In this document: positions 15,291 through 36,722 of the stretch, piece after piece | Position numbering within the stretch: position 1 is the stretch's first letter | How the letters are laid out: each line of letters begins with the position of its first letter | DNA from: Mesorhizobium loti | Lineage (GTDB): Bacteria > Pseudomonadota > Alphaproteobacteria > Rhizobiales > Rhizobiaceae | Length of the DNA: 64,000 nt | Reading direction: 5' to 3' | Assembly (NCBI GenBank): GCA_014189435.1 | Contig: CP050293.1 | Coordinates: forward strand, 5,337,001 to 5,401,000 | Notes under the pieces: generated by a model | The model's input: the letters and a program-made list of their open reading frames with translations, nothing else | What the model was told of the DNA's origin: nothing | Databases searched by the model: none | Made by a program: the position numbers and the translations under genes

Positions 15291-16865
15291 CTAATCGACT
15301 TCGTCCCCCAGCGTTGCCACCGTCTTCAGCGCACCGTCGAGCATGTCGCCCTTCTCGTCCTTCAGCGCCATCTCGCGCAGGCGGCGAAGCCAGTCGGCGG
15401 CGTCCGCTCGGCCCTTGAGCAGATCTAGCGCGGACAGCACCCGGTCGAATTTCGACTGCGCGCGGACGTGGGTGTCGCTATAGCCTTTGATCAGCCGGCG
15501 GCAGTTGAGGATCTCGACAGCCAGCGCATAATCCTGGGGCACATGGTCGAGTACCAGCGCGTACCAGCGATCGAGATGCGCGATCTCGACCTTGTGGCGC
15601 AGCAGGCTGCGGCGCCAGCGGCGCAGGCCGCCGATGAACCAGAGGGCGGCAAAGCCGGCAAAGCTGTCGGTGCGGATGCGGCGGCCGTGGTTGATGCGGC
15701 GATCGAGAAAGGCGGCGAACTTCGGACGGTTTTCGATGTAGCTGCCTAGGCTTGCCGGCAGCGTGCCGCAGAACTCCTCGATGCGCGGATGGAAATACTC
15801 GGTCACCTGCAGGATCGAGCCGTCCTTGACGCCGACCTCGCGGCGGACGCGTTTGTCGCGCGTCGAGCGTGTCTTCAGATCGGCGACGCGGATCATGTCG
15901 TCGTAGCACAGCGCGTTGGCCAGGTGCTTCGCGGCGGCGATGGACAGGCTGTAGCCGCGGTCCGGCCCGTCCAGCGCGACCGCCTTGTCCAGCCGATCGA
16001 GATACTCGCGCCCGTAGGCGATGTCCTGATAATCGACGACCTTTCTCAGGCCCCGGAGCGCCATGTCGCGCACGGCCACCGGCAACAGATCGATGCGCGC
16101 GGCCAAGGCCTGCCAGCCTTGCAGCAGGTTTTGCGGGCCACTCACCTGTCCGGCGCCCAGGGCCGATTCGACAATCGCCGGCTCGGCCGGCTTCGGCGCC
16201 GGTGCTGCCGTGCCGCGCGCGCGATCAAACGCAGCGCCAAAGGCGGCGAGGCTCGCCTTGACGCCCCGGCCGCCGGCACCGATCGCCTGTTCGTAGCTCT
16301 CACGAGAGAACGGCAGCGCGTCGGACCCCGCCAGCGCGCCAAGCAGGCTGGCCGAGATCATCGAGCCATTGTCGGCGGCGATCTTTTCCATGTCGAAGGC
16401 GATGAAGCGCTTCGATGCGGCTTCCGCCGTCGCATGCACCTTGGACGACGAGGCCCGGCCATCTCCCGGCTCGATTTTTTCCGACACGGCGGCGATGCGG
16501 TGCGAGGAAGCAATCAGCGTGGTGCGCTCGGGCGTGACGAAGCCGCGGATGATGGCGCGGCCGGCTTCCATCAGTTCGGCGGCGATCAGGATATCGACAT
16601 CGCCCTGCGAGGGCGACAGCGCGAAGACCGGCAGGCGGCCGGTGTCGCGGGCCATCTCGACATAATAGATGGTGGCGCCGGTGCGCTGGGCGACGCCGGC
16701 GACCGAGGTCGATTGCGCGACAAAGCCGCTACGCTCGGCAACGTCGGTGATCCAGTCGGCCAGCACGCCGCCGCCCTGGCCGCCGACCGCCAGCACGGCA
16801 AGCTTGATGACACGCTCGTTATCCTGAGCGCCGGCGTGGGCGCGAAGTGGGGGGGACGGCGTCAA
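15291..16865 (-). CDS. indolepyruvate/2-oxoacid ferredoxin oxidoreductase beta-type subunit (IorB-like)
   Basis: A 524-residue subunit of a 2-oxoacid:ferredoxin oxidoreductase. The N-terminal domain has the gamma-type motif LAVLAVGGQGGGVLADWI, and about 300 further residues (DUF6537-like) follow. The only start codon that keeps the whole domain is a TTG whose bases overlap the iorA stop (TTGA), indicating translational coupling. With IorA it would decarboxylate an aryl 2-oxoacid, load the acyl group on CoA and reduce ferredoxin. In this gene set, isatinate (2-aminophenylglyoxylate) is an attractive substrate, yielding 2-aminobenzoyl-CoA; that is inference, and indolepyruvate remains the default. 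Confidence 0.88.
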   Translation of the reverse strand: MTPSPPLRAHAGAQDNERVIKLAVLAVGGQGGGVLADWITDVAERSGFVAQSTSVAGVAQRTGATIYYVEMARDTGRLPVFALSPSQGDVDILIAAELMEAGRAIIRGFVTPERTTLIASSHRIAAVSEKIEPGDGRASSSKVHATAEAASKRFIAFDMEKIAADNGSMISASLLGALAGSDALPFSRESYEQAIGAGGRGVKASLAAFGAAFDRARGTAAPAPKPAEPAIVESALGAGQVSGPQNLLQGWQALAARIDLLPVAVRDMALRGLRKVVDYQDIAYGREYLDRLDKAVALDGPDRGYSLSIAAAKHLANALCYDDMIRVADLKTRSTRDKRVRREVGVKDGSILQVTEYFHPRIEEFCGTLPASLGSYIENRPKFAAFLDRRINHGRRIRTDSFAGFAALWFIGGLRRWRRSLLRHKVEIAHLDRWYALVLDHVPQDYALAVEILNCRRLIKGYSDTHVRAQSKFDRVLSALDLLKGRADAADWLRRLREMALKDEKGDMLDGALKTVATLGDEVD

Positions 16866-19015
16866 GCATCGGCGAAGGTCAGCCGCCGGCTTTCGCGGCG
16901 GCGCTGCAACAGGCCGATGGTGGCGCGGCGCGCGGCTTCCAGGAAACGGTCCCAGCGGCTCGGATTGTGGACGACGTCGGCGCGGTAGAAGGATGGGCAG
17001 AGCACCGCCGCATCGGCGACCTCGCCGCAATTGCCGCAGCCGACGCAGCTTTGGTCGATATGGGCGACCGGATCGTCGCGCAGGGGATCGTCTGTTGACT
17101 TCACCGACAGCGAGGGGCAGCCCGACAGCCGCATGCAGGCATGGTCGCCGGTGCAGATGTCCTCGTCGACACCAAACTTCGGCTTCACCACCCGCTCCCC
17201 GCCCTTGATCGCCTTGTCGACCAGCGGCTTTTCGCGGCGCTGACGGTTGAGCATGCATTCGGACGAGGCGACGATGACCTTCGGCCCCTTCTCCTCCGTC
17301 GTCAGCGCCTCGCGCAGCGTGTCCTGCATCTTGGTGACGTCATAGGTGCGGTCGACATGGCGAAGCCATTTGACACCCATGCCTTTCACGGCCTCGGTGA
17401 TCGGATGCTTCGTCGACTTGGTTTTGTTGCCGGCGCGCGATGACAGGATGTCCTGGCCGCCGGTCGCCGCCGAATAGAAATTATCGACGATGACGATGAC
17501 GCCGTCATTCTTGTTGAACACCGCATTGCCGATCGAGGAGGTCAGGCCGTTGTGCCAGAAGCCGCCGTCGCCGACGAAGGAGATCGAACGGCGCTTGGCA
17601 TCAGGCGAATTGAACGCGGAGGCCGAAGCCGGCCCAAGCCCATAGCCCATGGTGGTGGCGCCGAGTTCGAAAGGCGGCATGATCGAGAACAGGTGGCAGC
17701 CGATGTCGGAGGCGATGTGGTGCTTGCCGAGTTCCTGCTCGACCAGTTTGGTCGCGGCAAAGATCGGCCGCTCGGGGCAGCCGATGCAGAAGCCTGGCGG
17801 CCGGCCCGGCACGACATTGATCAGGTCTGCGGCGTCGACGCCGTCGCCGACCTTGTTGGGGGCGCGCACCTCGCCCGGCAGCAGATGCGGCGCCTCGACG
17901 CGCAGGAAGGCGCCGATGCCGTCGAGCATGACCTGGCCGGTGTATTCGCCGGCCATCGGCAAATGCTCCTTGCCGACCAGCCTGGTGCCGCGACCGGCCT
18001 TGTGCAGCATCGAAGCAAAGGCCTGCTCGATGTAGTTGGGCTGGCCTTCCTCGACGACCAGCACCGACTGCTTGCCCTCACAGAAGGACAGGAATTCGTC
18101 ATCGATCAGCGGATAGACGGCGTTGAGCACGTAGAGCGGCACATCGGTGTCGCCGTAAGTGTCGGCAAGGCCGAGCCGCTGCAGCGCGCGGATGACCGAA
18201 TTGTACATGCCGCCCTGCATGACGATGCCGACCGAACCATGATCCGAGCCGAAGAATTCATTGATCTTGTTCTTGCGGATGAAGTCCACCGCCGCCGGCC
18301 AGCGCTTCTGCACCTTCTCCTTCTCATGCAGGAAGGAAGCGGGCGGCAGCACGATGCGGCCGGTGTCGCGGCGCGGCGCGTCAAGCGCATCGGCAACCGT
18401 CATTGGCGGCCGCTTGTTGTCCTTGGCGATGAAATGGCCGTGGACATGGCAGCAGCGGATGCGGACCTGCAGCATGACCGGCGTGTTGGAAATCTCCGAC
18501 AGCTCGAAGCCATCCTCCACCGCCTTGACGATCGACGGCAGGTTCGGGCGCGGGTCGAGCAGCCAGACCTGGCTCTTCATGGCGAAGGCATGGCTGCGCT
18601 CCTGCATGATCGAGGAGCCCTCACCATAATCCTCGCCGACAATGATCAGCGCGCCGCCGGTGACGCCGCCGGAGGCGAGATTGGCCAGCGCGTCGGAGGC
18701 GACATTGGTGCCGACCGTCGACTTGAAGGTCGCCGCACCGCGGATCGGATAATGCACCGAGGCGGCCAGCATGGCGGTGGCGGTGGCTTCCGAGGCGCTG
18801 GCCTCGAAATGCACGCCGAGCTCGCCCAGAATGTCCTGCGCGTCGGCCAGCACATCCATCAGATGGCTGATCGGCGCGCCCTGATAGCCGCCGACATAGC
18901 CGACACCGCATTGCAGCAGCGCCTTGGTGATGGCGAGGATGCCTTCGCCGGCAAATTCCTCGCCGGCGCCGAGCCTGAGCTTCTCGACTTCCTTGGCAAA
19001 AGACCGTTCGGCCAT
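16862..19015 (-). CDS. indolepyruvate/2-oxoacid ferredoxin oxidoreductase alpha subunit (IorA-like)
   Basis: The 717-residue large subunit. The pyrimidine-binding domain opens the protein (GVGYVGGYQGAPISHLMD), the thiamine diphosphate motif GDGGFWHNGLTSSIGN is near residue 480, and a ferredoxin-like C-terminus from about 615 holds CTGDHACMRLSGCP and CVGCGNCGEVADAAVLCP. The second is a usual 4Fe-4S motif; the first has altered Cys spacing, as in alphaproteobacterial IorA. The enzyme is cytoplasmic and acts with IorB. The gene is first in the iorA-iorB pair, with an intergenic palindrome and a MarR gene upstream on the same strand. Confidence 0.92.
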   Translation of the reverse strand: MAERSFAKEVEKLRLGAGEEFAGEGILAITKALLQCGVGYVGGYQGAPISHLMDVLADAQDILGELGVHFEASASEATATAMLAASVHYPIRGAATFKSTVGTNVASDALANLASGGVTGGALIIVGEDYGEGSSIMQERSHAFAMKSQVWLLDPRPNLPSIVKAVEDGFELSEISNTPVMLQVRIRCCHVHGHFIAKDNKRPPMTVADALDAPRRDTGRIVLPPASFLHEKEKVQKRWPAAVDFIRKNKINEFFGSDHGSVGIVMQGGMYNSVIRALQRLGLADTYGDTDVPLYVLNAVYPLIDDEFLSFCEGKQSVLVVEEGQPNYIEQAFASMLHKAGRGTRLVGKEHLPMAGEYTGQVMLDGIGAFLRVEAPHLLPGEVRAPNKVGDGVDAADLINVVPGRPPGFCIGCPERPIFAATKLVEQELGKHHIASDIGCHLFSIMPPFELGATTMGYGLGPASASAFNSPDAKRRSISFVGDGGFWHNGLTSSIGNAVFNKNDGVIVIVDNFYSAATGGQDILSSRAGNKTKSTKHPITEAVKGMGVKWLRHVDRTYDVTKMQDTLREALTTEEKGPKVIVASSECMLNRQRREKPLVDKAIKGGERVVKPKFGVDEDICTGDHACMRLSGCPSLSVKSTDDPLRDDPVAHIDQSCVGCGNCGEVADAAVLCPSFYRADVVHNPSRWDRFLEAARRATIGLLQRRRESRRLTFADA

Positions 19016-19071
19016 TTTTTCAATCCTTCCGTTACCGCCTGAGGCTGGCGGCGCGTAGGTCTATCTGCTTG

Positions 19072-19118
19072 AGCATGACCTCTTCCGAGAACCGGTATCC
19101 ACTCTTCGGGGTCATGCT
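19072..19118. repeat. short rhizobial intergenic palindrome
   Basis: AGCATGAC at the left pairs with GTCATGCT at the right, with partly paired bases between (CTTCCGAGAACCGG). This wording is a frequent Rhizobiales intergenic element. It lies between the MarR stop and the iorA start and may be a stop or processing site for the MarR transcript. Confidence 0.65.
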
Positions 19119-19599
19119 AGATGTCGTGCTTGCGAATGTTTTTCAGCATCTTCAAAAGCGTCGCGATGAGTGCGGAATATTCAGCGTCGTCGATATCGTC
19201 GAACATCGCCTCGAACGCGTCATGCATGGCAGGCCAGGCGCGGGTGAATTCGGCGCGGCCCTCGTCGGTCAGGAACACGTGGCGGATGCGGCTGTCGGTG
19301 ACACCTTGCTCGCGCCGTACCAGGCCCTGGCCCTCCAGCGAGTCGAGCGTCCGGCTCAAGGTCGACTGCTCGATCACAGTGTAGACCGACAGGTCGTTGA
19401 CGGTGATGCCGTCGGTGACCGACAGCACGGCGAGCGTGCGTACCTGCGGAATGGTCAGCCCCTGCTTGCGGAAATCGTCGCGCAAGGTGGCGTTGTAGCG
19501 GCCCATGATGCGGTTCATCAGATAGGGCGCGAATTGCTGCAGGCCGATCTGCCCCAGGGTCGAGATGCGCTGGCGCTTTTCGGCAACCTTCTGTTCCAT
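19117..19599 (-). CDS. MarR family transcriptional regulator
   Basis: A 160-residue MarR protein with the winged-helix core: FRKQGLTIPQVRTLAVLS, then the recognition helix NDLSVYTVIEQSTLSRTLDSLE, and the wing DSRIRHVFLTDEGRA. MarR dimers bind palindromes and usually release them on binding an aromatic ligand. Its ATG overlaps the stop of the FAD oxidoreductase gene (TGATG), so it is translated from the same message. It is one of two MarR genes in this catabolic region and a candidate for the TTTnAAGCwTnAAA sites at 22.3, 30.1, 37.9 and 38.8 kb. Confidence 0.9.
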   Translation of the reverse strand: MEQKVAEKRQRISTLGQIGLQQFAPYLMNRIMGRYNATLRDDFRKQGLTIPQVRTLAVLSVTDGITVNDLSVYTVIEQSTLSRTLDSLEGQGLVRREQGVTDSRIRHVFLTDEGRAEFTRAWPAMHDAFEAMFDDIDDAEYSALIATLLKMLKNIRKHDI

Positions 19600-21170
19600 C
19601 ACAGCCTCCCCGCCAGGAGAAAGCCGGAGCCGCCGCCAAGGCCGGCACCGGGATGGGTGGAGGCGCCGATATGGTAGAGGTTCTTGATGCCGGTCTGGTG
19701 GTTGCGGCTGGTCTTGAACGGCCGCCACAGGAACGATTGGTCGATGGTCGAGGAGCCACCATAGGGATCGCCACCGACAAGATTGATGTTCATCGCTTCG
19801 AGATCGGCCGGCGAATAGGCGCGGCGCGCGATGACGCTGTCCTTGAAGCCGTCGATATGGCTGGCAAGGATCGCTTCGGCGCGATCGGCATAAGCTTCCC
19901 GCAACGCGTCGGTCCATTGCCCGTCAGCCGGCGCCTGCAGCTTGCCTGCGGCATCGCCCTCGATGTGACGTGGTACCTCGGGCAGTTGCAGCCACAGGAT
20001 CGCCTTGCCCTCCGGACAGCGCGACGGATCGAGCGCGTGCGGCTGGCCGACACAGATGGTCGGCACCTCAGGCAGCATGCCGCGCGCCGCCTCGTTGCAG
20101 GCCTTCGAGACGCCATCCAGTCCCGGTGTCAGGTGCAGCAGCGCCACTTTGTCCAGGCCTTCGCCCCGCCATGAGGGCGGTTTGTCCAACGCGTAGTGGA
20201 TCTGGAAATTGCCTTTGCCGTAGCGGTATTTTTGCGTCGCCTCGACATCGGCTTTGGGTGCATCCGCGCCAAGCAGCCTGCCATAGAGCTGCGTTGGCGT
20301 GACCGAGCATATGACGCTCTTCTTCGCATGGACCGTTTCGCCCGAGGCCAGCCGCACGCCGGTGGCGCGACCTCCAGCCAGGATGATGGAAGCAACGTCC
20401 GCTTCGGTAGAGATGACGCCGCCACGCTCGGTGATCAATGCCTCGAAGGCGGCCAGCAGGTTCTGCGCGCCGCCCTTGACGATCGGTGCCCCGGCCGCCT
20501 CCAGCGCGAAGGCGATCACCTTGGCGATTTGGCCGGAGAATGCATCTTCCGGTCCGAGCCCGGCATGCAGCACCCAGGGCGCCCACAGCGCACGGATGGT
20601 TTCGGACTGGTAGGTGCTTTCCAGCCAGCTGCGCGCCGGCACGAGTGCTTCGCCGAGAAAGGCGGCAAGGCCACGCGAGCCGCGCCGCCAGGCATCGCCG
20701 GCCAAAAGCTTCGCGGTCGGATAGGACCACAGGCTGCCGCCGAGCAGGCCGAACAGCAGGCCGGCATTGCGCTCGATGCCGCCGACATCGTTCGCGTGCC
20801 GGTCGCCGTCGCCTGCCGCGATTGCGTTGAGGGCAGCGACATTGGCGGCGCGGTCGGTGGTGAGCACGGCATAGCTGCCGTCCGGCCGCAGCACGCCGGT
20901 CGGCTTGGCCGTATGGCAGAATTCAAGCCCGTGCCGCGCAAGGTCGGCGCCGAGTACCGCAAAGGCCGGCGAGGTGATGAACAGCACGAAGGTCGTCGCC
21001 ATCACGTCATGGATGAAGCCGGGCGCGGTGATCTCCTCGGTGCGCATGCAGCCGCCAATGCGGTCGTTGCGCTCCAGGACAAGCACCTTGGCGCCCTTGC
21101 CGCCGAGCATCGCCGCGCAGACCAGCGCGTTGATGCCGCTGCCGACGATGATGTGATCGGGGGCGTTCAT
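19599..21170 (-). CDS. NAD(P)/FAD-dependent oxidoreductase, phytoene-desaturase-like (copy 1)
   Basis: A 523-residue flavoprotein. The N-terminal FAD motif is VGSGINALVCAAMLGGKG with the acid at VLERND, followed by RIGGCMRTEE. The C-terminal FAD-contact motif is GASTHPGAGLGGGSG. The fold is that of phytoene desaturases and amine oxidases, yet no carotenoid genes are nearby. A second copy of the same type (22367-23941) lies beyond the isatin-hydrolase-like gene. Both likely oxidise a C-N or C-C bond of the pathway substrate. It is co-transcribed with the MarR gene. The substrate is unknown. Confidence 0.85.
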   Translation of the reverse strand: MNAPDHIIVGSGINALVCAAMLGGKGAKVLVLERNDRIGGCMRTEEITAPGFIHDVMATTFVLFITSPAFAVLGADLARHGLEFCHTAKPTGVLRPDGSYAVLTTDRAANVAALNAIAAGDGDRHANDVGGIERNAGLLFGLLGGSLWSYPTAKLLAGDAWRRGSRGLAAFLGEALVPARSWLESTYQSETIRALWAPWVLHAGLGPEDAFSGQIAKVIAFALEAAGAPIVKGGAQNLLAAFEALITERGGVISTEADVASIILAGGRATGVRLASGETVHAKKSVICSVTPTQLYGRLLGADAPKADVEATQKYRYGKGNFQIHYALDKPPSWRGEGLDKVALLHLTPGLDGVSKACNEAARGMLPEVPTICVGQPHALDPSRCPEGKAILWLQLPEVPRHIEGDAAGKLQAPADGQWTDALREAYADRAEAILASHIDGFKDSVIARRAYSPADLEAMNINLVGGDPYGGSSTIDQSFLWRPFKTSRNHQTGIKNLYHIGASTHPGAGLGGGSGFLLAGRL

Positions 21171-21221
21171 TGGGCGTTTCCTGTGGGCAGCGGATGGGCA
21201 TGGGAGGGCGGCCCTCTACGA

Positions 21222-21379
21222 CGCCCCCCTCTGTCCTGCCGGACATCTCCCCCACAAGGGGGGAGATCGGCTATCATCTCGGCTTTCGCCAATTTTCTAC
21301 GTTGCAAGATGGGAGCCGTCGCGGAAGCCGCCAATCTCCCCCCTTGTGGGGGAGATGCCCGGCAGGGCAGAGGGGGGCG
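21222..21379. repeat. long palindromic repeat, family A, copy 1
   Basis: A near-perfect long inverted repeat: GCCCCCCTCTGTCCTGCCG at the left pairs with CGGCAGGGCAGAGGGGGGC at the right, and a second inner pair is built around CTCCCCCACAAGGGGGGAG. The same element recurs at 34922-35080. It fills the space between the cyclase gene end and the start of the FAD oxidoreductase gene. Confidence 0.85.
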
Positions 21380-21454
21380 CCGTAAGGCGCGAGCGCCGTC
21401 AACCTGCCTCCCTATCGCTTCGCCAACCTGCATGACCTTCTCCCGAAGATCTCC

Positions 21455-22246
21455 TTACTGCCCAGACACAAGCGCCAGCGCGCGGATCGGACTGCCGGTG
21501 CCGTGTTCGATCTTGAGCGGCGCCGCGATCAGGATGGCACCCTTCGGCGGCAGCTGGTCGAGGTTGCAGAGGCTGGCTAGACCGTAGCGGTTGGCCTTGT
21601 GCATCAGCGTGTGCGCCGGGAACGGCGGCTCCATGCCACCGGCCTTGCCGGCATCCGTGCCGATCGTCTCCGAGCCCCAGCCCTTGATGTCCTTGCTGAT
21701 CAGAAACTGGATGGCTTCGGCCGTCGGGCCGGGCGTGTGCGGGCCGGTCTCGTTGGCGTTGAGGAACTCGGCTTCGGAGCCGTTGCGCTTGTACCAGTCG
21801 GTGCGCATCACCACCCACTCGCCGGCGTTGATCGCGCCATGCTTGGCTTCCCATGCCTTAATGTGGTCGACGGTGAGCAGGAAATCATGGTCGGCGGCGG
21901 CTTCCTTCGAGCAGTCGATGACATTGACCGGGCCGACGAAGTTCTGCGCCGGAATGGTGTCGGTGGCGCCGTCCGGATAATCCTTGCCAGAGATCCAGTG
22001 CTGCGGCGCATCGAAATGCGTGCCCGAATGTTCGCCAAGCTTCAGCCAGTTCCAGGCCCACCAGGGACCGTTCTTGTCATAGCGGGAGATGTTGTGGATC
22101 TCGACCTTGGGTGTGTCGACGGCGAGCTCCGGCGGCAGCTTGATCAACGGCGTGTCGGGTCCGAGCGGCGCCGACAGGTCGACCACCTTGATGGCGCCTG
22201 AAAGAAGCTGGCCGGCGACTTCGCCGAGGAGTTTTTGGGTGTCCAT
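21455..22246 (-). CDS. isatin hydrolase-like cyclase-family metalloenzyme
   Basis: A 263-residue member of the cyclase/kynurenine-formamidase superfamily. The metal motif HSGTHFDAPQH places ligands at H73, H77 and D79. Segments WWAWNWLKLGEHSG, DCSKEAAADHDFLL, GGMEPPFPAH and GTGSPIRALAL closely match what I recall of isatin hydrolase, which opens the lactam of isatin to give isatinate with Mn2+. Kynurenine formamidase (KynB) is the main alternative; it has other residues around these motifs. The gene is divergent from the second FAD oxidoreductase and shares its operator region. Confidence 0.82.
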   Translation of the reverse strand: MDTQKLLGEVAGQLLSGAIKVVDLSAPLGPDTPLIKLPPELAVDTPKVEIHNISRYDKNGPWWAWNWLKLGEHSGTHFDAPQHWISGKDYPDGATDTIPAQNFVGPVNVIDCSKEAAADHDFLLTVDHIKAWEAKHGAINAGEWVVMRTDWYKRNGSEAEFLNANETGPHTPGPTAEAIQFLISKDIKGWGSETIGTDAGKAGGMEPPFPAHTLMHKANRYGLASLCNLDQLPPKGAILIAAPLKIEHGTGSPIRALALVSGQ

Positions 22247-22334
22247 GGTCTGAAGTTCCCTCTTTCGTGATGATGATCAAGGCTCGTCTCGGCCCTTAAT
22301 ATCCTACTAGACGAAAACATATGCATCTGCAATT

Positions 22335-22352
22335 ATCTTTAAGCATAAAGGA
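22335..22352. promoter_or_regulatory. putative MarR operator 1
   Basis: CTTTAAGCATAAAG: five-base arms CTTTA/TAAAG around AGCA. It lies about 15 bases before the GTG of the second FAD oxidoreductase and about 90 bases from the start of the divergent isatin-hydrolase-like gene. It has the same core as the sites at 30.1, 37.9 and 38.8 kb. Confidence 0.6.
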
Positions 22353-22366
22353 AATGGGAACGGGGC

Positions 22367-23941
22367 GTGAGCGAGTTTGACGCCATCTTTGTCGGGGCGG
22401 GCCACAACAGTCTGGCATGCGCCGCGCATTTGGCGCTCAAAGGCTGGAAAATCGGGATTTTCGAGCGCAGCGCAGCAATCGGCGGCGCTGTCCAGACGCG
22501 CGAATTCACCCTTCCCGGCTTCCGTCACGATTTCGGCGCGATGAATCTCAGCCTGTTCGCCGGCTCCGCCTTCCACCGGAAATATGCAAATGAATTGAAA
22601 GCGCAGGGGCTGGAATTCGCGCCCGTCGCCGATTGTTTCGCCAGCGCCTTTCCGGACGGACGCTGGTTCGGCGTCAGCAACGACCTGGAAAAGACCGCCG
22701 CGCGGATGGCCGCCTTTTCCGCCACTGACGCCGCGACATGGCGCAGATTGGTCGCCGCCTTCCCGGCGGAGGCCGAGCATCTGTTCCGGCTGCTGGGTTC
22801 GCCGATGAGCGCCCGCGCGCTTGTCGGCACGGCGTGGAACCTGTGGCGCAAGAAGGGCACTGCCGGCGCGCTCGATACGGGACGGCTGCTGTTGTCTTCG
22901 CCACGCGCCTGGCTGGAGGAGAACTTCGAGTCGCCTCATATCAGGGCAACGCTCGCCACCTGGGGCATGCATCTCGACTTCGCGCCCGACATCGCCGGCG
23001 GCGCCGTGTTCCCCTATCTGGAATCGATGGCCAACCAGAGTTTCGGCATGGTGCTGGGCAAGGGTGGCGCCGACACCATCATCCGTGCTCTGTCTGGCAT
23101 GGTGACTTCCGCCGGCGGCAAGATCTTCACCGGCGCCGACGTGGCCGAGATCACGGTTTCGGCCGGCAAGGCGACCGGCGTGCGGCTTGCTTCCGGTGAG
23201 ACCCATACCGCCAACAGGGCGGTGATTGCCGGCGTCGCGCCCAAGGCGCTGACCGGCAAACTGCTGCCCAATGGTTCTAGCGACACCGGCTTCGACAAGG
23301 CGATGCAAAAATTCCGATACGCGCCGGGCACGATGATGATCCATCTGGCGCTCGACGATCTGCCGGACTGGCGCGCCAGCGCTGAGCTTCAGAAGTTTGC
23401 TTATGTCCATCTGTCGCCGTCGCTCGACGCCATGTCGCGCACCTATCAGCAGGCGATGGCGGGCATACTGCCGGACGAGCCGGTGCTGGTCGTCGGTCAG
23501 CCGACGGCGATCGACCCGTCGCGGGCGCCTCAGGGCAAGCATGTGCTGTGGGTGCAGGTGCGCATGCTGCCCGCCGAAATCCTTGGCGATGCGGCAGGCA
23601 AGATCGCGCCAGCGCATTGGGACAAGGTCAAGGAGGTCTACGCCGACCGTGTCCTCGACATCATCGAGACCTATGCGCCCGGCCTGCGAAACAAGATCCT
23701 CGGCCAGGCGGTGTTCTCGCCCATCGATCTCGAGCGCGAGAACCCGAACCTCGTCGGCGGCGATCAGGTCTGCGGCAGCCATCATCTGGCGCAGAATTTC
23801 CTGTTTCGCCCGGTGCGCGGCTATGCCGGCTGGAACACGCCGGTCGGCAACCTGCATCTCACCGGTGCTGCAACGTGGCCGGGCGCCGGGACCGGTGCGG
23901 CTTCCGGATACATGCTCGCGCAACAGCTTGGCGGGAGGTAG
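22367..23941 (+). CDS. NAD(P)/FAD-dependent oxidoreductase, phytoene-desaturase-like (copy 2)
   Basis: A 524-residue flavoprotein with the FAD motif VGAGHNSLACAAHLALKG, the acid at IFERS, IGGAVQTREF, and the C-terminal contact GAATWPGAGTGAASG. It is similar in design to the 19599-21170 protein, so the two probably arose by duplication and act on successive or related intermediates. GTG start, with a purine-rich stretch (AAAGGAAATGGGAACGGG) in front. It heads a transcript that probably continues into the ABC importer genes. Substrate unknown. Confidence 0.85.
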   Translation: MSEFDAIFVGAGHNSLACAAHLALKGWKIGIFERSAAIGGAVQTREFTLPGFRHDFGAMNLSLFAGSAFHRKYANELKAQGLEFAPVADCFASAFPDGRWFGVSNDLEKTAARMAAFSATDAATWRRLVAAFPAEAEHLFRLLGSPMSARALVGTAWNLWRKKGTAGALDTGRLLLSSPRAWLEENFESPHIRATLATWGMHLDFAPDIAGGAVFPYLESMANQSFGMVLGKGGADTIIRALSGMVTSAGGKIFTGADVAEITVSAGKATGVRLASGETHTANRAVIAGVAPKALTGKLLPNGSSDTGFDKAMQKFRYAPGTMMIHLALDDLPDWRASAELQKFAYVHLSPSLDAMSRTYQQAMAGILPDEPVLVVGQPTAIDPSRAPQGKHVLWVQVRMLPAEILGDAAGKIAPAHWDKVKEVYADRVLDIIETYAPGLRNKILGQAVFSPIDLERENPNLVGGDQVCGSHHLAQNFLFRPVRGYAGWNTPVGNLHLTGAATWPGAGTGAASGYMLAQQLGGR

Positions 23942-28522: not shown

Positions 28523-29351
28523 ACCGTTGTTCTCCGTGCGCGGGCTGAAGGTCGCGCTGCCCGATATGACGCGCAAGCCGCTGATCGGCCGCGCGCCATT
28601 GGCCGAGATCCTGAAAGGGCTGGATTTCGATCTCCCCAAGGGCTCGGTGACCGGCATCGTCGGCGAATCCGGATCGGGAAAATCAACGCTCGGCCGCGCT
28701 CTGGTGCGCCTCTTGGAGCCCAGCGCCGGCAGCATCACTTTCGACGGCCGCGACATTACCCGTCTGCCGGAAGCGGAGCTGCGGCCATTGCGCCGCAATC
28801 TTCAGATGATTTTTCAAGATCCGATGTCGTCGCTCAACCCGCGCCGCACCATTGCCAGCATCATCGCCGCACCGCTGAAGCAGAATGGCCTCGGCGACGA
28901 TCTGAAGGCGCGCGTCGCCGAGGCCTTGCAACGCGTCGGCCTGCCGCAGAGTTTTGCCAGCCGCTATCGCCATGAACTGTCGGGCGGACAGCGTCAGCGC
29001 GTCGGCATTGCGCGCGCTCTGGCGCTGTCGCCGAAATTCGTGCTGGCCGACGAGATCGTCTCTGGTCTCGACGTGTCGACGCAGGCGCAGATCCTGACCC
29101 TGCTGGAGAAGCTCGCGGCGGAGATGGGCCTGACCGTCGCTTTCATCAGCCACGATCTGTCGGTCATTCGGCGGCTGTGCCGGCAAGTCATCGTCATGCG
29201 CGAAGGCGTGATCGTCGAGGCCAGCGCCACCGACGCCTTGTTCGACAAGCCGCGGCAAGCCTACACGCGCGACCTGATCGCAGCCATTCCACTGCCTGAA
29301 ATCGACGCCGGCTGGCTGGACATCCCTGCCGCGGCCAAGCCGCCGACTTGA
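28515..29351 (+). CDS. ABC transporter ATP-binding protein, DppF type
   Basis: A 278-residue ATPase: Walker A GESGSGKST, the DppF-type MIFQDPMSSLNPR, signature LSGGQRQRVGIARAL, D-loop region ADEIVSGLDVS and switch SHDLS. The Walker B run VLADEIVSGLD has Ile-Val-Ser where Pro-Thr is usual, which is common in DppF proteins. The ATG lies eight bases inside the end of the previous gene. It completes a five-gene importer. Confidence 0.92.
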   Translation: MVEPLFSVRGLKVALPDMTRKPLIGRAPLAEILKGLDFDLPKGSVTGIVGESGSGKSTLGRALVRLLEPSAGSITFDGRDITRLPEAELRPLRRNLQMIFQDPMSSLNPRRTIASIIAAPLKQNGLGDDLKARVAEALQRVGLPQSFASRYRHELSGGQRQRVGIARALALSPKFVLADEIVSGLDVSTQAQILTLLEKLAAEMGLTVAFISHDLSVIRRLCRQVIVMREGVIVEASATDALFDKPRQAYTRDLIAAIPLPEIDAGWLDIPAAAKPPT

Positions 29352-29428
29352 ATGCATACGCACGCCGAAAAGCGGGGTTCGGACATGCGACCGCAAAGAC
29401 CCAGGTCCCGCCAATGGAGAGGACGGAC

Positions 29429-30028
29429 ATGAAGACGATACTTCGAAATGCAACGCTCGCCGCGGCAATTCTTGGCAGCGCCGGCATGGCCTCGGCGGAT
29501 TCGATCCCAGGCATGCGCGGCCACGACCACACGGGCATCACCGTGCCCGACATGAAGCAGGCGGTCGACTTCTTCACCGAGGTGGTCGGCTGCAAGAAGG
29601 CGATGTCGTTCGGCCCGTTCGCCGACGACAAGGGCACGTTCATGCAGGATCTGCTGGGTGTCGATCCGAAGGCGGTGATCGAAGAGGTCACCATGGTGCG
29701 CTGCGGCTATGGATCGAACATCGAGCTCTTCAAATACACAGCACCTGACCAGAAGGACCTGACGCCGAAGAACAGCGACATTGGCGGCTTCCACATTGCC
29801 CTCTATGTCGACGATGTCACTGCGGCCAAAGCCTATCTCGACGGCAAGGGCGTCAAGACACGCATGGGACCGCTGCCAGTCAAGGAAGGGCCTGCCGCCG
29901 GCCAGACCATTCTCTACTTCCAGGCGCCTTGGGGACTGCAACTGGAAGCGATCAGCTATCCCGATGGGATGGCCTATGAGAAGGGCGCCGAGACGGTGCT
30001 GTGGAGCCCGAAGAGCCCGGAAAAATGA
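29429..30028 (+). CDS. exported VOC (glyoxalase-fold) protein
   Basis: A 199-residue protein with a signal peptide (ILRNATLAAAILGSAGMASA) and a vicinal-oxygen-chelate fold. The four expected metal ligands can be seen in order: His in DHTGITV, Glu in NIELFKY, His in GGFHIALYV and Glu in LQLEAISY. An exported VOC enzyme is unusual. GGAGAGG lies eight bases before the ATG; a longer frame starting at 29348 would bury the signal peptide. It follows the importer genes and precedes the hairpin at 30035, so it probably ends that operon. Reaction unknown; a periplasmic dioxygenase or isomerase is possible. Confidence 0.8.
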   Translation: MKTILRNATLAAAILGSAGMASADSIPGMRGHDHTGITVPDMKQAVDFFTEVVGCKKAMSFGPFADDKGTFMQDLLGVDPKAVIEEVTMVRCGYGSNIELFKYTAPDQKDLTPKNSDIGGFHIALYVDDVTAAKAYLDGKGVKTRMGPLPVKEGPAAGQTILYFQAPWGLQLEAISYPDGMAYEKGAETVLWSPKSPEK

Positions 30029-30068: not shown

Positions 30069-30097
30069 CGCCATATCAGGACAATCGTTTCGATATA

Positions 30098-30169: not shown

Positions 30170-32464
30170 ATGAAGGTTGCGGTTCTCGGCGGCGGACCAG
30201 CCGGCCTCTACTTTGCCATTTCGATGAAGCTGAGGGACGCCGCGCACGATGTGACGGTGTTCGAGCGCAACCACGCCGACGACACGTTCGGCTGGGGCGT
30301 CGTGCTGTCGGCCGAGACGCTCGACAATTTGTCGAAAAACGATCCGGTCAGCGCCGTCTGGATCAAGAAGCATTTTGCCTACTGGGACGACATCGCCGTC
30401 ATCCATGACGGCGTGCGCACGGTCTCGTCAGGACACGGCTTCTGCGGCATCGGCCGCAAGCGTCTGCTGGTCCTGCTGCAGCGCCGGGCGCGCGAACTCG
30501 GCGTCAAGCTGATGTTCGAGACCGATATCGCCGATCCCAAGCCCTATATGGAGACGCATGATCTGGTCGTCGCCGCCGACGGCCTGAACTCCAGGGCGCG
30601 CAACAGCTTCGTCGACATCTTCAAGCCCGACATCGACACCCGCAAATGCAAGTTCGTCTGGCTCGGCACCCAACAGAAATTCGACGACGCTTTCACCTTC
30701 ATCTTCGAGAAGACCGAGCATGGCTGGGTGTGGGCGCACGCCTACCAGTTCGACAGCGACACCGCGACGTTCATCGTCGAGTGCAGCGAACAAACCTGGA
30801 CTGCCTTCGGCTTCGGCGCGATGTCGCAGCAGGAATCGATCGCCGTCTGCGAGCGTATCTTCGAAAGACATCTCGGCGGCCACGCGCTGATGACCAATGC
30901 CAACCACATCCGAGGTTCGGCATGGATCAATTTTCCGCGCGTGCTATGCGAGCGCTGGTCCTACAAGAACCTCGCGCTGATGGGCGATGCGGCGGCGTCG
31001 GCGCATTTCTCGATCGGCTCCGGCACCAAACTCGCATTGGAAAGCGCCGTAGCGCTGGCCGAGTATGTCGAAACCGAGCCGGACCTCGAGGCTGCCTTCC
31101 GCAAATATGAGGACGCCCGCCGCACCGAGGTGCTGAAGTTGCAATCGGCGGCGCGCAATTCGCTCGAATGGTTCGAGGAGGTCGAGCGCTATCTCGGCCT
31201 CGATCCGGTGCAGTTCAACTATTCGCTTTTGACCCGCTCGCAGCGCATCAGCCACGAGAATCTGCGGCTGCGCGATGCCGAATGGCTGGGCGGCGCGGAG
31301 GAGTGGTTCCAGCGCCAGGCGGGCGCCGGCGGCAACAGCCTGCGCCGCGCGCCGATGTTCGCGCCGTTCAAGCTGCGCGACATGAAGCTGCAGAACCGCG
31401 TCGTCGTCTCGCCGATGGCGCAGTACAAGGCCGTCGACGGCTGTCCGACCGACTGGCATTTCACCCATTACGCGGAACGGGCCAAGGGCGGCGCCGGGCT
31501 CATCTATATCGAGATGACCTGCGTCAGCCCGGAAGGGCGGATCACGCCCGGTTGTCCGGGATTCTACGCGCCCGAGCATGAGGTGGCGTGGAAGCGGCTG
31601 GTCGATTTCGTCCACACCGAAACCGAAGCCAAGATCTGCGCCCAGATCGGCCATTCCGGCGCCAAGGGCTCAACCCGGCTCGGCTGGGAGGGCACGGACG
31701 TGCCGCTGACCTCGGGCAACTGGCCTGTGATAGCGGCCTCGGCCGTTGCCTGGTCACCGCAGAATCAGGTGCCGAAGGCGATGGACCGCGCCGACATGGA
31801 CCGCGTGCGCGACGAATTCGTGGCCTCGGCCGAGATGGCCGATCGCTGCGGCTTCGACATGCTCGAGATCCACGCCGCGCACGGCTATCTCTTGTCGTCC
31901 TTCATCACGCCGGTCACCAACCGGCGCACGGATGACTATGGCGGTTCGCTTGACAATCGCATGCGCTATCCTCTCGAAATCTTCCGCGCGGTGCGCGCCG
32001 CCTGGCCGGCGGAGAAGCCGATCTCGATGCGCATTTCGGCCAATGACTGGGTCGGCATCGAAGGCGTGACGCCTGCCGATGCGGTCGAGATCGCACGGCT
32101 GCTGCATGAGGCCGGCGTCGATATTTGCGACGTCTCGGCCGGCCAGACCTCGGCCCTGGCAAAGCCTGTCTATGGCCGCATGTTCCAAACGCCGTTTTCC
32201 GACCGCATCCGCAACGAGGTCGGCATGGCGACGATGGCGGTCGGCAACATCTACGAACCGGACCATGTCAATTCGATCCTGATGGCTGGCCGCGCCGACC
32301 TGGTGGCGCTGGCACGGCCGCATCTCGCCGATCCCTACTGGACGCTGCATGCCGCCGTCACGCTCGGCGACCGTGGTGTCAGATGGCCGGATCCCTATCT
32401 GCCCGGACGCGACCAGCTCTACCGGCTGGCCGAGCGCGACGCCGCAGCGGGGCTGAAAGTATGA
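30170..32464 (+). CDS. fused aryl-CoA monooxygenase / OYE-type reductase (2-aminobenzoyl-CoA or salicylyl-CoA type)
   Basis: A 764-residue bifunctional enzyme. Residues 1-390 form a flavoprotein monooxygenase (GGGPAG at 7-12, [20 protein letters not shown]). Residues about 395-764 are an old-yellow-enzyme reductase ([35 protein letters not shown]). The fusion is characteristic of 2-aminobenzoyl-CoA monooxygenase/reductase, which hydroxylates and dearomatises the CoA ester, and of proteins annotated salicylyl-CoA 5-hydroxylase. The neighbouring hydratase, dehydrogenase, SDR, RidA and MarR genes match the anthranilate cluster described in Azoarcus evansii. Good AGAGGAG ribosome site. Whether the substrate carries an amino or a hydroxyl group cannot be read directly. 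Confidence 0.9.
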
Positions 32465-32490
32465 GCGCTTTTCGTTTGCCACATCAGCGC

Positions 32491-32735
32491 CGCCCCTCAT
32501 CCGCCAGCCGGCACCTTCTCGCCGTAATAGTACGCAGGGCAGCTTGGCGCATTCATTGTCTCGCGCTGCGCTGGTCGACCCCCACTCCGTCGCTGCTCCG
32601 CAGCGCCACCTCTCCCCGATCGACGGGGGAGAGGAAGGGCGCGAGCCCTTTGCCGCCGATGCTCGTCCCATGAGGCTCCCTTCCTTTCCCTCCGGAGGGG
32701 GAAGGTGGCGCTGCGAAGCAGCGACGGATTGGGGG
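32491..32735. repeat. composite palindromic repeat, family C
   Basis: The gap between the fused enzyme and the SDR gene (32465-32855) is mostly repeat. GTCGCTGCTCCGCAGCGCCAC at its centre pairs with GTGGCGCTGCGAAGCAGCGAC further right, with inner CTCTCCCC/GGGGGAGAG. To the left is half of a second element (CCCCTCATCCGCCAGCCGGC) like the ends of the one at 63.5 kb. No gene is seen here. The last 120 bases should hold the SDR promoter. Confidence 0.75.
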
Positions 32736-32855
32736 AACCACTTGGCAACCAGGCATCGGGCTAATCACTCATGCTAGTCACAGAAGACCTGTGCATGCCA
32801 TGGCGTCGATCTTGCGTGAGGGCGAGGGGCAGCGCCATGTTTCGAGGATACGCGC

Positions 32856-33614
32856 ATGATTGCGGGTAAACATGCGTTGGTCACCGGCGGCGGCTCCGGT
32901 GTCGGCCGGGCCATTGCGCTGGCCTTGGCTGGCGCCGGTATCGATGTGACCATCTGCGGCCGGCGCGACACCGAGCTTGCCAAAGTGGCTGGCGAAAGCA
33001 AAGGCATTTTCGGCATCGCCGCCGACGTCACCGATGAGGCGGCAATGGCGTCGCTCTACGAAAGGGCGCAAGCCGCGCGCGGACCCTTCGACATCGTCGT
33101 CGCCAATGCCGGCATGTCCGGCAGCGCGCCGGCGCACAAAACCGCGCTCAGCGACTGGCAGCGGACGCTCGACGTCAATTTGACCGGCGCCTTCCTGACG
33201 GTGAAGCCGGCGCTGGCCGGGATGGCCGCGCGCAAGGCGGGGCGGATCGTCTTCATCGCCTCCACGGCCGGGCTGAAAGGCTACGCCTATGTCGCACCTT
33301 ACGTCGCCGCCAAACATGGCGTCGTCGGCCTGATGCGGGCGCTGGCGGTCGAGACGGCGAAATCCGGCGTGACCGTCAACGCCGTGTGCCCGGGCTTTGT
33401 GGAAACCGAAATGCTGGAAGAAACCATCCAGCGCATCATCGAGAAGACCGGCCGCTCGGCCGAGCAGGCACGGTCGAGCCTTGCCTCGACCAATCCGCAA
33501 GGCCGCTTCATCCAACCGGATGAGATTGCCGCCGCCGTGCTGTGGCTCTGTGGCGACGCCGCCCAGTCGATCACCGGACAGGCGATTTCCATTTCAGGAG
33601 GCGAAACATGGTAG
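32856..33614 (+). CDS. short-chain dehydrogenase/reductase
   Basis: A 252-residue SDR: NAD(P) motif TGGGSGVG at residues 10-17, NAG in ANAGMSG, catalytic Ser in FIASTAG and YxxxK in YVAAK. The C-terminal [13 protein letters not shown] is typical. It fits a 3-hydroxyacyl-CoA dehydrogenase step in the breakdown of the dearomatised ring. It overlaps the MarR gene by seven bases and starts the second operon of the cluster (SDR-MarR-ECH-ACAD-RidA). Confidence 0.9.
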   Translation: MIAGKHALVTGGGSGVGRAIALALAGAGIDVTICGRRDTELAKVAGESKGIFGIAADVTDEAAMASLYERAQAARGPFDIVVANAGMSGSAPAHKTALSDWQRTLDVNLTGAFLTVKPALAGMAARKAGRIVFIASTAGLKGYAYVAPYVAAKHGVVGLMRALAVETAKSGVTVNAVCPGFVETEMLEETIQRIIEKTGRSAEQARSSLASTNPQGRFIQPDEIAAAVLWLCGDAAQSITGQAISISGGETW

Positions 33615-34078
33615 CCGGCCCCCTGCCCGCGCCGTCGGGACCCGGCAAGGACCGCTTGCGTCTGTGGATCAGGCTGCTGCGTGCCTCGCGCACGATCGAG
33701 GCCGAGCTGCGCGAGCGCCTGAAGAAGGACTTCAACACGACGCTGCCGCGCTTCGATGTGATGGCAGCCCTTTATCGGGTGCCGGAAGGCATGCTGATGA
33801 GCGACCTGTCGCGCTTCCTGCTGGTTTCCAACGGCAATGTCACGGGCATCATCGACCGGCTGGTTTCGGAAGGCCTTGTTGCGCGCGCGCGGCGCAATGG
33901 CGACCGCCGCACATCGATGGTGCGGCTGACAGAGGAAGGCACGCAGGCCTTCGCCACGATCGCCGCGGCGCATGAAGGCTGGATCGGTGAACTACTGGGC
34001 AAGGTCAGCGAGGACGACGCGCGCCGGCTGACCGGCATGCTGACCTCGTTCCGCAGCAACTGGGAGGGACGCGAATGA
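33608..34078 (+). CDS. MarR family transcriptional regulator (second)
   Basis: A 156-residue MarR protein. The winged helix is visible in [18 protein letters not shown], the recognition helix [21 protein letters not shown], and the wing [16 protein letters not shown]. The position inside the aryl-CoA operon, like that of the MarR gene in the Azoarcus anthranilate cluster, suggests that it senses an aryl-CoA or free aromatic acid. Its start overlaps the SDR stop and its stop overlaps the hydratase start (ATGA). It is the other candidate for the TTTnAAGCwTnAAA operators. Confidence 0.9.
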
Positions 34079-34887
34079 CCGCGATGGCCGGGCGCAAGCC
34101 GAAGCATTTCCTGTGGGAGGTCGAGGGCAGGATCGCCAAGGTCCGGCTCGACCGGCCGGAGCGCAAGAACCCGCTGACCTTCGACAGCTATGCCGAGCTG
34201 CGCGACACATTCCGCGACCTCGTCTATGCCGACGATGTCGACGCCGTGGTGTTCCTCTCCAATGGCGGCAATTTCTGCTCCGGCGGCGATGTCCACGACA
34301 TCATTGGCCCGCTGGTCAAGATGGACATGAAAGAGCTTCTCGCCTTCACCCGCATGACTGGCGATTTCGTGAAGGCGATGCTGAATTGCGGCAAGCCGAT
34401 CATTGCGGCGGTCGACGGTGTCGCGGTCGGCGCCGGCGCCATCATTGCGATGAGCTCCGACATCCGCATCGCCACGCCGGAAGCCAAGACCGCCTTCCTG
34501 TTCACCCGCGTCGGCCTCGCCGGTTGCGACATGGGCGCCTGTGCGATCCTGCCGCGCATCATCGGCCAGGGCCGCGCCGCCGAACTGCTCTACACCGGCC
34601 GCACCATGACGGCGGCGGAAGGCGAGCGCTGGGGTTTTTACAACCGGCTGGTCGATGCCGCCTCGCTGGAGGCCGACGCACTCGACATGGCGGCGCGCAT
34701 CGTCTCCGGCCCGACCTTCGCCCACGGCATCACCAAGACGCAGCTCAACCAGGAATGGTCGATGGGTCTCGACCAGGCGATCGAAGCGGAAGCGCAGGCG
34801 CAAGCGATCTGCATGCAGACCCGCGACTTCGAGCGCGCCTACAAGGCGTTCGTGGCCAAGGAAAAGCCGGTGTTCGAGGGGGATTGA
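34075..34887 (+). CDS. enoyl-CoA hydratase/isomerase family protein
   Basis: A 270-residue crotonase-fold enzyme. The oxyanion-hole segments are [10 protein letters not shown] and [19 protein letters not shown]. At the usual catalytic loop it has [15 protein letters not shown], without the paired Glu residues of classic hydratases, so it may be a hydrolase or a ring-opening variant, as expected for alicyclic CoA esters. Coupled by ATGA to the MarR gene. The following space holds a palindromic repeat that lies between it and the acyl-CoA dehydrogenase. Confidence 0.88.
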
Positions 34888-34921
34888 GGATGAGCGTTTC
34901 AATGGAGACGTTGGCGGGACA

Positions 34922-35080
34922 GCGCCCCCCTCTGTCCTGCCGGACATCTCCCCCACGAGGGGGGAGATCGGCTATCCGCTTTGGTTTCGCCATTATCAAA
35001 CGTAGCAGAATTGGCGGGACGGCCGTGCCAGCCAATCTCCCCCTCGTGGGGGAGATGTCCGGCAGGACAGAGGGGGGCGC
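34922..35080. repeat. long palindromic repeat, family A, copy 2
   Basis: GCGCCCCCCTCTGTCCTGCC at the left pairs with GGCAGGACAGAGGGGGGCGC at the right, with the inner CTCCCCCACGAGGGGGGAG. It is the second copy of the element at 21.2 kb. It sits inside an operon, and an open frame from ATG 34890 runs through the whole element in the frame of the acyl-CoA dehydrogenase. Confidence 0.85.
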
Positions 35081-35114
35081 CGTAGAGCGCAAGGCCCGAG
35101 TACCGGAGGCACCA

Positions 35115-36263
35115 ATGCCTGACCGCTCCTTCCTGAACTGGCCGTTCTTCGAAGACCGCCATCGCGAGTGGGCCGAACGCCTGGAGACATGGTGCGCGGA
35201 AAACCTGCCAGTCGATCACCATGATGTCGACGCCGCCTGCCGCGAGCTGGTGGGCAAGCTCGGCAGAGACGGCTGGCTGAAGCCGACGGCACTCGACACC
35301 GACAATCCTGGACCACTCGATGTGCGCACACTGTGCATCACGCGCGAGACGCTCGCGCGCCATGACGGGTTGGCCGATTTCGCCTTCGCCATGCAGGGGC
35401 TGGGCACCGGCGCGCTCAGCCTGTTCGGCACGCCGCAACAGCAGCAATGGCTTTCGAAGACGCGCGCCGGCAAGGCGATTTCCGCTTTTGCCCTGTCGGA
35501 ACCGCGCTCGGGATCGGATGTGGCCAACACCGAAATGACGGCGACCCGCGACGGCGACAGCTATGTTTTGTCGGGTGAAAAGACCTGGATCTCCAATGGC
35601 GGCATCGCCGACCTCTATGTCGTCTTTGCCCGCACCGGCGAGGCGCCGGGCGCCAGGGGGCTCTCGGCCTTCCTCGTGCCTGGCGACGCCAAGGGCCTCG
35701 GCATTGCCGAGCGGCTGGAAGTGATTGCGCCGCATCCGCTGGCGCGCCTGTCGTTCGACCAGGTCCGCCTGCCCGCCTCGTCACTGATTGGCAAGCCCGG
35801 CGACGGCTTCCGCATCGCCATGTCGGTGCTCGACGTGTTCCGCTCAACCGTAGGGGCGGCAGCACTCGGCTTTGCCCGCCGCGCGCTGGATGAAAGCATC
35901 AAACGCGTGGCCGAGCGCAAACTGTTCGGCGCGCCGATGGCCGAACTGCAGATGGTGCAGGGTCATATCGCCGACATGGCGCTCGATGTCGACGCGGCCG
36001 CCCTGCTGGTCTACCGCGCCGCATGGACGAAGGATATGGGTGCGCCCCGCGTCACGCGCGAGGCCGCGATGGCCAAGCTGTTTGCCACCGACAAGGCGCA
36101 AGAGGTGATCGACAAGGCGGTGCAGCTGCATGGCGGCGACGGCGTCCGCAAAGGCCATATCGTCGAAAGCCTGTATCGCGAGATCCGCGCGCTGCGCATC
36201 TACGAGGGTGCCTCCGACGTGCAGAAGGTGGTGATCGCGCGGCAAGTGATGGGCGCGGCCTGA
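35115..36263 (+). CDS. acyl-CoA dehydrogenase
   Basis: A 382-residue flavoprotein dehydrogenase. Motifs are [66 protein letters not shown] and [16 protein letters not shown], which carries the catalytic Glu. The ATG has GGAGG eight bases upstream. In the aryl-CoA cluster it would oxidise the alicyclic CoA ester. An ATG at 34890 is in the same frame through the palindromic repeat and would add 75 residues; I consider the shorter form real because it fits the family length and has the better ribosome site. Confidence 0.9.
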
Positions 36264-36326
36264 CGGCAGAGATTTGACGGGCATTCGATTTTGAAAATTG
36301 GTTTTTGGAATACCGGGAGGTTTTGA

Positions 36327-36722
36327 ATGCACACTATTCTGCAGCCGGAAGGCTGGGCGAAACCTGTCGGCTACGCCAACGGCGTCGCGGCGCGCGGGCA
36401 GCTCGTCTTCGTCGGCGGACAGGTCGGCTGGAACGGGCAATGCCAGTTCGAAACCGACGACTTCGTCGGCCAGGTGAAGCAGACGCTCGAGAACGTCGTC
36501 GCGGTGCTGGCCGAGGCCGGTGCGGGGCCGCAGCACATCACCTCGATGACCTGGTATTTCACCGATAAGGCCGAATACCTCGCCAACCTTAGGGGTATCG
36601 GCGAGGCCTATCGCGAGGTGATCGGCCGGCATTTTCCAGCAATGGCCGCCATGCAGGTGATGGCGCTGGTCGAGGACCGCGCCAAGGTGGAGATTCAGGC
36701 CACGGCAGTTATACCGGAATAA
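36327..36722 (+). CDS. RidA family protein lacking the catalytic arginine
   Basis: A 131-residue RidA/YjgF protein (VAARGQLVFVGGQVGW, then QVKQTLENVVAVLAEAGAG). Active RidA enamine/imine deaminases have Arg in the motif PxRS. Here the same place reads FPAMAAMQV, so the Arg is replaced. Similar loss occurs in other Rid subgroups. In an anthranilate-type pathway a RidA protein would handle the enamine left after ring reduction, but this copy may bind rather than hydrolyse. The ribosome site is GGGAGG. It converges on the LLM gene. Confidence 0.88.
   Translation: MHTILQPEGWAKPVGYANGVAARGQLVFVGGQVGWNGQCQFETDDFVGQVKQTLENVVAVLAEAGAGPQHITSMTWYFTDKAEYLANLRGIGEAYREVIGRHFPAMAAMQVMALVEDRAKVEIQATAVIPE

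Follow-up and report, generated by a model that had tools for sequence, protein, structure and literature searches.

Organisation of the cluster

Within a window of 64,000 nucleotides from the Mesorhizobium loti genome (C1:5337001-5401000 of an 8.33-Mb genome in three contigs), we identified one divergent gene cluster that holds an isatin hydrolase (IH), an IorA/IorB pair related to indolepyruvate:ferredoxin oxidoreductase (IOR) and a fused aryl-CoA monooxygenase/reductase of the 2-aminobenzoyl-CoA monooxygenase/reductase type (ACMR), an arrangement that bears on how isatinate might enter CoA-dependent aromatic degradation. A hydratase, an acyl-CoA dehydrogenase, a short-chain dehydrogenase (SDR), a RidA family protein and two MarR genes belong to the same cluster. 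All of these had been named in an earlier note on this DNA and were found in the places it gave them; the note had overlooked two FAD oxidoreductases, an Opp-type ABC importer and a VOC protein.

The two arms run outward from a 120-bp intergenic region (22247..22366 of the window), which is probably a control region shared by both. On the minus strand this gap is followed by IH (21455..22246), the CrtO/CrtI-like FAD oxidoreductase AO1 (19599..21170), the regulator MarR1 (19117..19599), which has the same position in Tritonibacter and Alloyangia, the IorA-like subunit with its thiamine diphosphate domain (16862..19015) and the IorB-like subunit (15291..16865), composed of a POR domain and DUF6537 and probably starting from a TTG at 16865 that overlaps the iorA stop. 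The plus arm opens with a second CrtO/CrtI-like FAD oxidoreductase, AO2 (22367..23941), and a five-gene Opp/Dpp-type ABC importer consisting of a family 5 solute-binding protein (24053..25582), two permeases (25799-26806 and 26772-27647) and two ATPases (27644-28522 and 28470-29351). Searches with AO2 and the solute-binding protein returned just remote or broad families. Next come the VOC (glyoxalase-fold) protein (29348..30028), ACMR (30170..32464), the SDR (32856..33614), MarR2 (about 33608-34078, from an inferred start codon), the enoyl-CoA hydratase (34075..34887), the acyl-CoA dehydrogenase (35115..36263, start likewise inferred) and RidA (36327..36722), all on the plus strand.

Identity of the isatin hydrolase, IorAB and ACMR

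The best solved match of the IH gene was isatin hydrolase B (4j0n), at 428 bits; the highest-scoring kynurenine formamidase (4cog) reached 32 bits, and on this difference we rejected kynurenine formamidase as the identity of the gene. It contains HSGTHFDAPQH, which fits the metal motif HxG[T/A]HxDxPxH common to isatin hydrolases and kynurenine formamidase (PMC6117287; this and the other papers cited here are drawn on in excerpt). The genome has five cyclase-family genes, and the cluster gene was the sole IH match among them at E 1e-45. Judged by its sequence, the cluster cyclase is a true isatin hydrolase, with hydrolysis of isatin as its predicted activity. Since isatinate belongs to the 2-oxoacids, on which enzymes of the IorAB kind act, IH and IorAB would fit as successive steps.

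The IorA/IorB pair was confirmed by the NCBIfam IOR alpha and beta families. IorA resembles indolepyruvate:ferredoxin oxidoreductase of the TIGR03336 type nearly end to end (IOR alpha model, 9-592 of 595, with TPP_enzyme_C present), but differs in scoring 274 bits, far below the equivalog cut-off of 651; IorB scores above the NF006179 subfamily cut-off and has DUF6537 as an extra region. The C-terminal region of IorA is, by eye, cysteine-rich and ferredoxin-like. A solved-structure search with IorA gave no match. It is single in the genome, besides two fused IOR-like proteins at 26-28% identity.

ACMR, the sole full-length copy in the genome, is above the NF006101 cut-off and joins a VioD-like flavin monooxygenase to an old-yellow-enzyme reductase. 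Its NCBIfam name is salicylyl-CoA 5-hydroxylase; the presence of RidA, together with linkage to kynureninase and an anthranilate-type ligase at another locus (L276), favours an amino substrate. The hydratase is over the NF006107 cut-off. The aerobic 2-aminobenzoyl-CoA pathway with a ligase is of the Azoarcus type. This route includes the ligase as well as ACMR (PMC6221969), and the window resembles it in grouping ACMR, SDR, MarR, hydratase, acyl-CoA dehydrogenase and RidA, as other ACMR operons do; it differs in that the place of the ligase is empty and IorAB and IH are joined in.

Conservation of the linkage between IH, IorAB and ACMR

To follow the cluster in other genomes, we took the best 80 of 380 relatives from an IH search of titled genome records, 76 of the 80 being titled Mesorhizobium. 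In all 67 of these IH loci that exceed 20 kb the order IH-AO1-MarR-IorA-IorB was kept, and ACMR lay at most 10 kb from the cluster in 66 of the 67. The same order with AO2 and the Opp genes near was found on three Roseobacter-group plasmids (Tritonibacter, Alloyangia and a Paracoccaceae member, in the last of which a VOC gene precedes iorA) and also in G061, G214 and G361 (L172, L173, L175), while G046 and G049 hold the same parts in a different order or split over two contigs. A minimal IH-MarR-IorA-IorB unit occurs in Sulfitobacter indolifex and Paracoccus sp. SMMA_5_TC. Elsewhere, genes for indole-3-acetate degradation (iad) stand in front: in G262, iadD-iadE-IH-IorA-IorB are contiguous and converge on an ACMR operon that lacks a ligase, and a search of this genome, 92% complete, found none at E 1e-110; in Azospirillum thermophilum IorAB is followed by iadCDE, iadF-like and iadJ-like genes and an ACMR operon, in a stretch where an anthranilate-type ligase was not found. 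In Caballeronia the order is IorAB-thioesterase-ACMR-cupin-FAH-hydrolase-racemase, then a MarR gene and IH. The front ends joined to the core are thus either auxin iad genes or FAD oxidoreductases with an importer, and a constant IH-IorAB core with changing front and back ends matches what is expected of two consecutive steps. On a quick ACMR tree, made with no test of the number of events, the ACMRs linked to IorAB and IH sit at four places.

Variant clusters were also seen. At L265, L266, L267 and L114, IorAB is accompanied by thioesterase, cupin, FAH, carbon-nitrogen hydrolase and Asp/Glu racemase genes; our guess is that these perhaps follow a route via free 5-hydroxyanthranilate with ring cleavage. 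At L118:3196-4918, next to the isatin cluster of the Alloyangia plasmid, a styrene/indole-monooxygenase-like gene stands with a flavin reductase, a hint of indole as a substrate there.

An IorA tree of 60 rows, which were chosen and not random, placed 32 in one clade with support of 100/100, and this clade contains all of the IH-, iadDE- and cupin-linked IorA among the 60. Of the 32 clade rows, 24 come from a genome or record that has IH, as do 3 of the 28 rows outside. Two further observations concern IorA. In L128 and L133, from one genus, a non-clade IorAB adjoins kynA, kynU and an ACMR operon with no linked ligase, the ligase being elsewhere in the genome; on a plasmid of Variovorax sp. 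WDL1 (L115), a two-piece IorA match is flanked by IS1071 transposases, and no IorB is annotated after it.

At the level of whole genomes, a comparison of 37 Mesorhizobium (36 congeners and the source) found IorA and IH in the same 30, and ACMR in all of these and also in G006 and G013; the ACMR of G005 is 52% identical only. In an even, class-wide draw of 337 members, 51 had an IorA match, and in 14 of these the IorA, at 65% identity or more, belongs to the clade. IH was present in 7 of the 14 genomes with clade IorA versus 5 of the 323 others (Fisher p 2.7e-8, or 3.8e-7 without the source genome; the genomes are not independent), and ACMR in 11 of the 12 IH genomes versus 50 of the 325 others. 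Because the genomes are non-independent and non-clade IorA is as strongly associated with ACMR, we dropped genome-level co-occurrence as specific evidence and put the weight on linkage. The co-occurrence of iorAB, the cyclase and the fused enzyme that the earlier note proposed to check in other genomes is seen as recurrent linkage; as a genome-level association it is not specific.

Distribution of the CoA ligase

In the cluster region we found no benzoate- or aminobenzoate-type CoA ligase. The lone AMP-binding gene met in scans of the window (49369-51378; some small ORFs of the outer window were unscanned) was rejected as the ligase, because its score passes the cut-off for a family of long-chain-fatty-acid ligases. 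The earlier note, which had read the absence of a ligase as explained by direct conversion of isatinate to 2-aminobenzoyl-CoA, was right for the region but not for the genome: an anthranilate-CoA-ligase-like gene lies 2.9 Mb from the cluster (C1:2426339-2428234; L270:9837-11735(-)). It scores 371.8 bits against the benzoate-CoA-ligase family, just below the cut-off of 375.25, has anthranilate-CoA ligase 4wv3 as its best solved match, and adjoins genes for tryptophan 2,3-dioxygenase and kynureninase, both above their family cut-offs. Since this ligase lies beside kynurenine genes elsewhere, the missing-ligase argument fails for the source genome, and we rejected it there as proof.

The argument is partly rescued by ligase-free relatives, together with the linkage in other lineages. 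A search of 56 cluster-bearing Mesorhizobium at E 1e-60 found a ligase in 36 and none in 20. Merging these with nine genomes of the 80-genome search described below and taking out repeats, as well as five duplicates that share an identical stretch of IorA, left 57 distinct cluster-bearing genomes, 19 of which had no ligase match. Twelve of the 19 carry G handles; G007 is 86% complete and the other eleven reach 99% or more. Seven come from titled records that have no completeness figure, and at one of these, L232, there is no ACMR within 10 kb. The ligase-free genomes include the single-contig G004 and G011 and M1B.F.Ca.ET.045.04.1.1, titled a complete genome. G006 and G013, which have ACMR and neither IorAB nor IH, both carry the ligase.

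Across a broader set of 80 genomes, a ligase was found in 66 at E 1e-110. ACMR was present in 73 of the 80. Clade IorA and IH occurred together in 18 of these, five of them lacking a ligase (G001, G004, G017, G262, G354); the pair was absent from 55 (four with clade IorA and no IH), four of which lacked a ligase (G085, G352, G373, G380). Among ACMR genomes at least 90% complete, 4 of 17 with clade IorA and IH were ligase-free versus 1 of 49 without (Fisher p 0.014, relatedness ignored). A tabulation of 52 ACMR loci gave 28 with a linked ligase only, 7 with clade IorAB only (3 of them Mesorhizobium), 2 with both and 15 with neither, some of these last lying on cut contigs. Where clade IorAB was lacking, the ligase was held by 28 of 43 loci, mostly directly beside the acyl-CoA dehydrogenase gene and often with RidA next; in the window RidA follows the acyl-CoA dehydrogenase directly and the ligase slot is empty.

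Relation to auxin degradation

The published iad loci of Variovorax, Bradyrhizobium and Achromobacter are, as far as excerpts describe them, like the window cluster in having iorA/iorB, a kynurenine-formamidase-like IadI and MarR regulators. Under the names iadA and iadB, iorA and iorB are described as exclusive iad markers (PMC9613470), and both marker genes are present in the window. The iad route is given as ending at anthranilic acid, with isatin and isatinic acid as intermediates (PMC9613470, PMC12633357); in Variovorax nine genes, iadC to iadK2, restore anthranilic acid, and C7H7NO and C8H7NO3 were detected (PMC12633357). The excerpts of these two descriptions give no step to iadAB; iadA, iadB, iorA and indolepyruvate had no match in the main text of PMC12633357, and iadA/iadB had no match in the excerpts of PMC10374108.

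The window differs from the iad loci in having no match to iadCDE or iadFGHJ and in placing FAD oxidoreductases and an Opp importer ahead and an ACMR operon behind, whereas the published end product is anthranilic acid. Our scans of the window for iadC-J (E 1e-15 at 45% coverage, and a second pass at E 1e-12 and 40%) returned no match, and iadC, iadD and iadE gave no match in the 80 IH loci, the whole genome not being searched for iadD. On these negatives, indole-3-acetate is probably not the substrate of the window cluster. The link to auxin breakdown suggested in the earlier note is real elsewhere, where IorAB stands with iadDE, but was not found in the window or the 80 loci.

A proposed route from isatin to 2-aminobenzoyl-CoA

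The anaerobic iaa pathway of Aromatoleum uses other enzymes and no oxygenase, and phenylglyoxylate oxidoreductase, of a different subunit make-up, forms benzoyl-CoA by the same chemistry on an arylglyoxylate that we propose for IorAB. In our best-supported reading, to which we assign a probability of roughly 0.65, IorAB turns isatinate into 2-aminobenzoyl-CoA within a catabolic divergon that serves an indolic compound from outside the cell. Taken up by the ABC importer, this compound would be oxidised by AO1 and AO2 to isatin, which IH would open to isatinate (2-aminophenylglyoxylate). IorAB, as a thiamine-diphosphate/iron-sulphur enzyme, would then carry out an oxidative decarboxylation of isatinate with CoA to give 2-aminobenzoyl-CoA, CO2 and reduced ferredoxin, and ACMR, the SDR, the hydratase, the acyl-CoA dehydrogenase and RidA would dearomatise the product and degrade it in a manner like beta-oxidation. 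The ATP-dependent ligase would serve as another, separable way in, leading from tryptophan via kynurenine and anthranilate. We infer the reactions of this scheme, and the IorAB substrate above all, from what was observed, namely gene identities, gene order, the IorA clade, linkage and ligase distribution. In the Aromatoleum pathway, too, carbon from auxin gets to 2-aminobenzoyl-CoA (PMC9613470).

A number of observations pull the other way. The source genome and 38 of the 57 cluster-bearing Mesorhizobium hold a ligase; on a gene tree of IorA from 30 congeners, 11 of the 13 members of one group, together with G017, make up the ligase-free genomes, and the independent ligase losses are therefore few; and more distant AMP-binding genes of the genome could substitute for it. 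Among the nine IorAB-linked ACMR loci, two also hold a ligase (Alloyangia, and G005, where a ligase-KynU-KynA set flanks the ACMR/IorAB locus) and three belong to a single Mesorhizobium lineage. Of the 32 clade rows, eight are from genomes with no IH at threshold (G059, G135, G147, G165, G238, G334, G346, G349), and in four IH-less clade genomes IorAB adjoins TRAP transporter genes (L125, L170, L177, L179), so the clade may use other 2-oxoacids. Conversely, the Roseibium IH sits in an iad operon with no IorAB nearby, ACMR-linked IorA lies outside the clade in L128 and L133 (with kynA/kynU; weak ACMR matches in L144, L146 and L171), and 26 of 37 genomes with non-clade IorA have ACMR. A Bradyrhizobium genome paper, in excerpt, assigns iorAB to auxin synthesis (PMC13068376).

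That assignment agrees with an alternative in which IorAB would convert indolepyruvate to indoleacetyl-CoA and a thioesterase would free indole-3-acetate for auxin breakdown, the isatin genes acting later. The family names of IorA and IorB fit it, IorAB adjoins iadCDE at several loci and bears the iadA/iadB names (PMC9613470), and in Ruegeria, Shinella, Caballeronia and Sulfitobacter THAF37 the gene after iorB encodes a thioesterase. We nonetheless hold it unlikely, given the low TIGR03336 score, the IH-MarR-IorAB units with no iad genes in the fetched stretch and the lack of iadC, iadD and iadE matches in the window and the 80 loci; it would also leave ACMR operons with no ligase unexplained. 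That isatinate instead yields free anthranilate by another path, for example via 2-aminobenzaldehyde, for the kynurenine-linked ligase to activate while IorAB has a side role, would agree with the ligase of the source genome and with the anthranilic acid produced through Variovorax iadC to iadK2 (PMC12633357). This seems to us quite unlikely, as the cluster shows no aldehyde dehydrogenase match and no decarboxylase gene, and a third of the cluster-bearing Mesorhizobium (19/57) have no ligase match. Many genomes have ACMR operons and neither IH nor IorAB, as expected if an isatin detoxification module and an unrelated kynurenine/anthranilate operon were neighbours here by chance; against the recurrence of the linkage at four places of the ACMR tree, the presence of IH and IorA in the same 30 of 37 Mesorhizobium and the retention of ACMR in G-handle genomes where the ligase was not found, such coincidence is very improbable.

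Conversion of isatinate by IorAB is thus, with the argument from a missing ligase withdrawn for the source genome, best supported by linkage, clade and ligase distribution. We lean slightly towards extending it to the whole IorA/IorB clade, iadA/iadB included, as an isatinate:ferredoxin oxidoreductase that would provide an ATP-free entry to the CoA-dependent anthranilate route for auxin, indole and other isatin-yielding pathways. Excerpts of the open-access literature, with subscription journals mostly outside, held no proposal that IorAB acts on isatinate, and to that extent this likely reaction would be an unpublished addition to a pathway of known kind. If correct, it would connect two halves of indole catabolism, yield reducing power rather than spend ATP, and give a role to two marker genes of auxin breakdown, a bacterial activity that shapes root growth; it would also make a sharp prediction for mutants of the ligase-free Mesorhizobium strains.

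Other features of the window

A palindromic intergenic element with arms of 45-55 nt, 93-98% complementary, is present in two copies, between IH and AO1 (21211-21398) and between the hydratase and the acyl-CoA dehydrogenase (34919-35098). To the left of the cluster, DUF1800 and DUF1501 genes are adjacent (10183-12955), and a trimethylamine methyltransferase (MTTB) family protein is encoded at 56455-58041.

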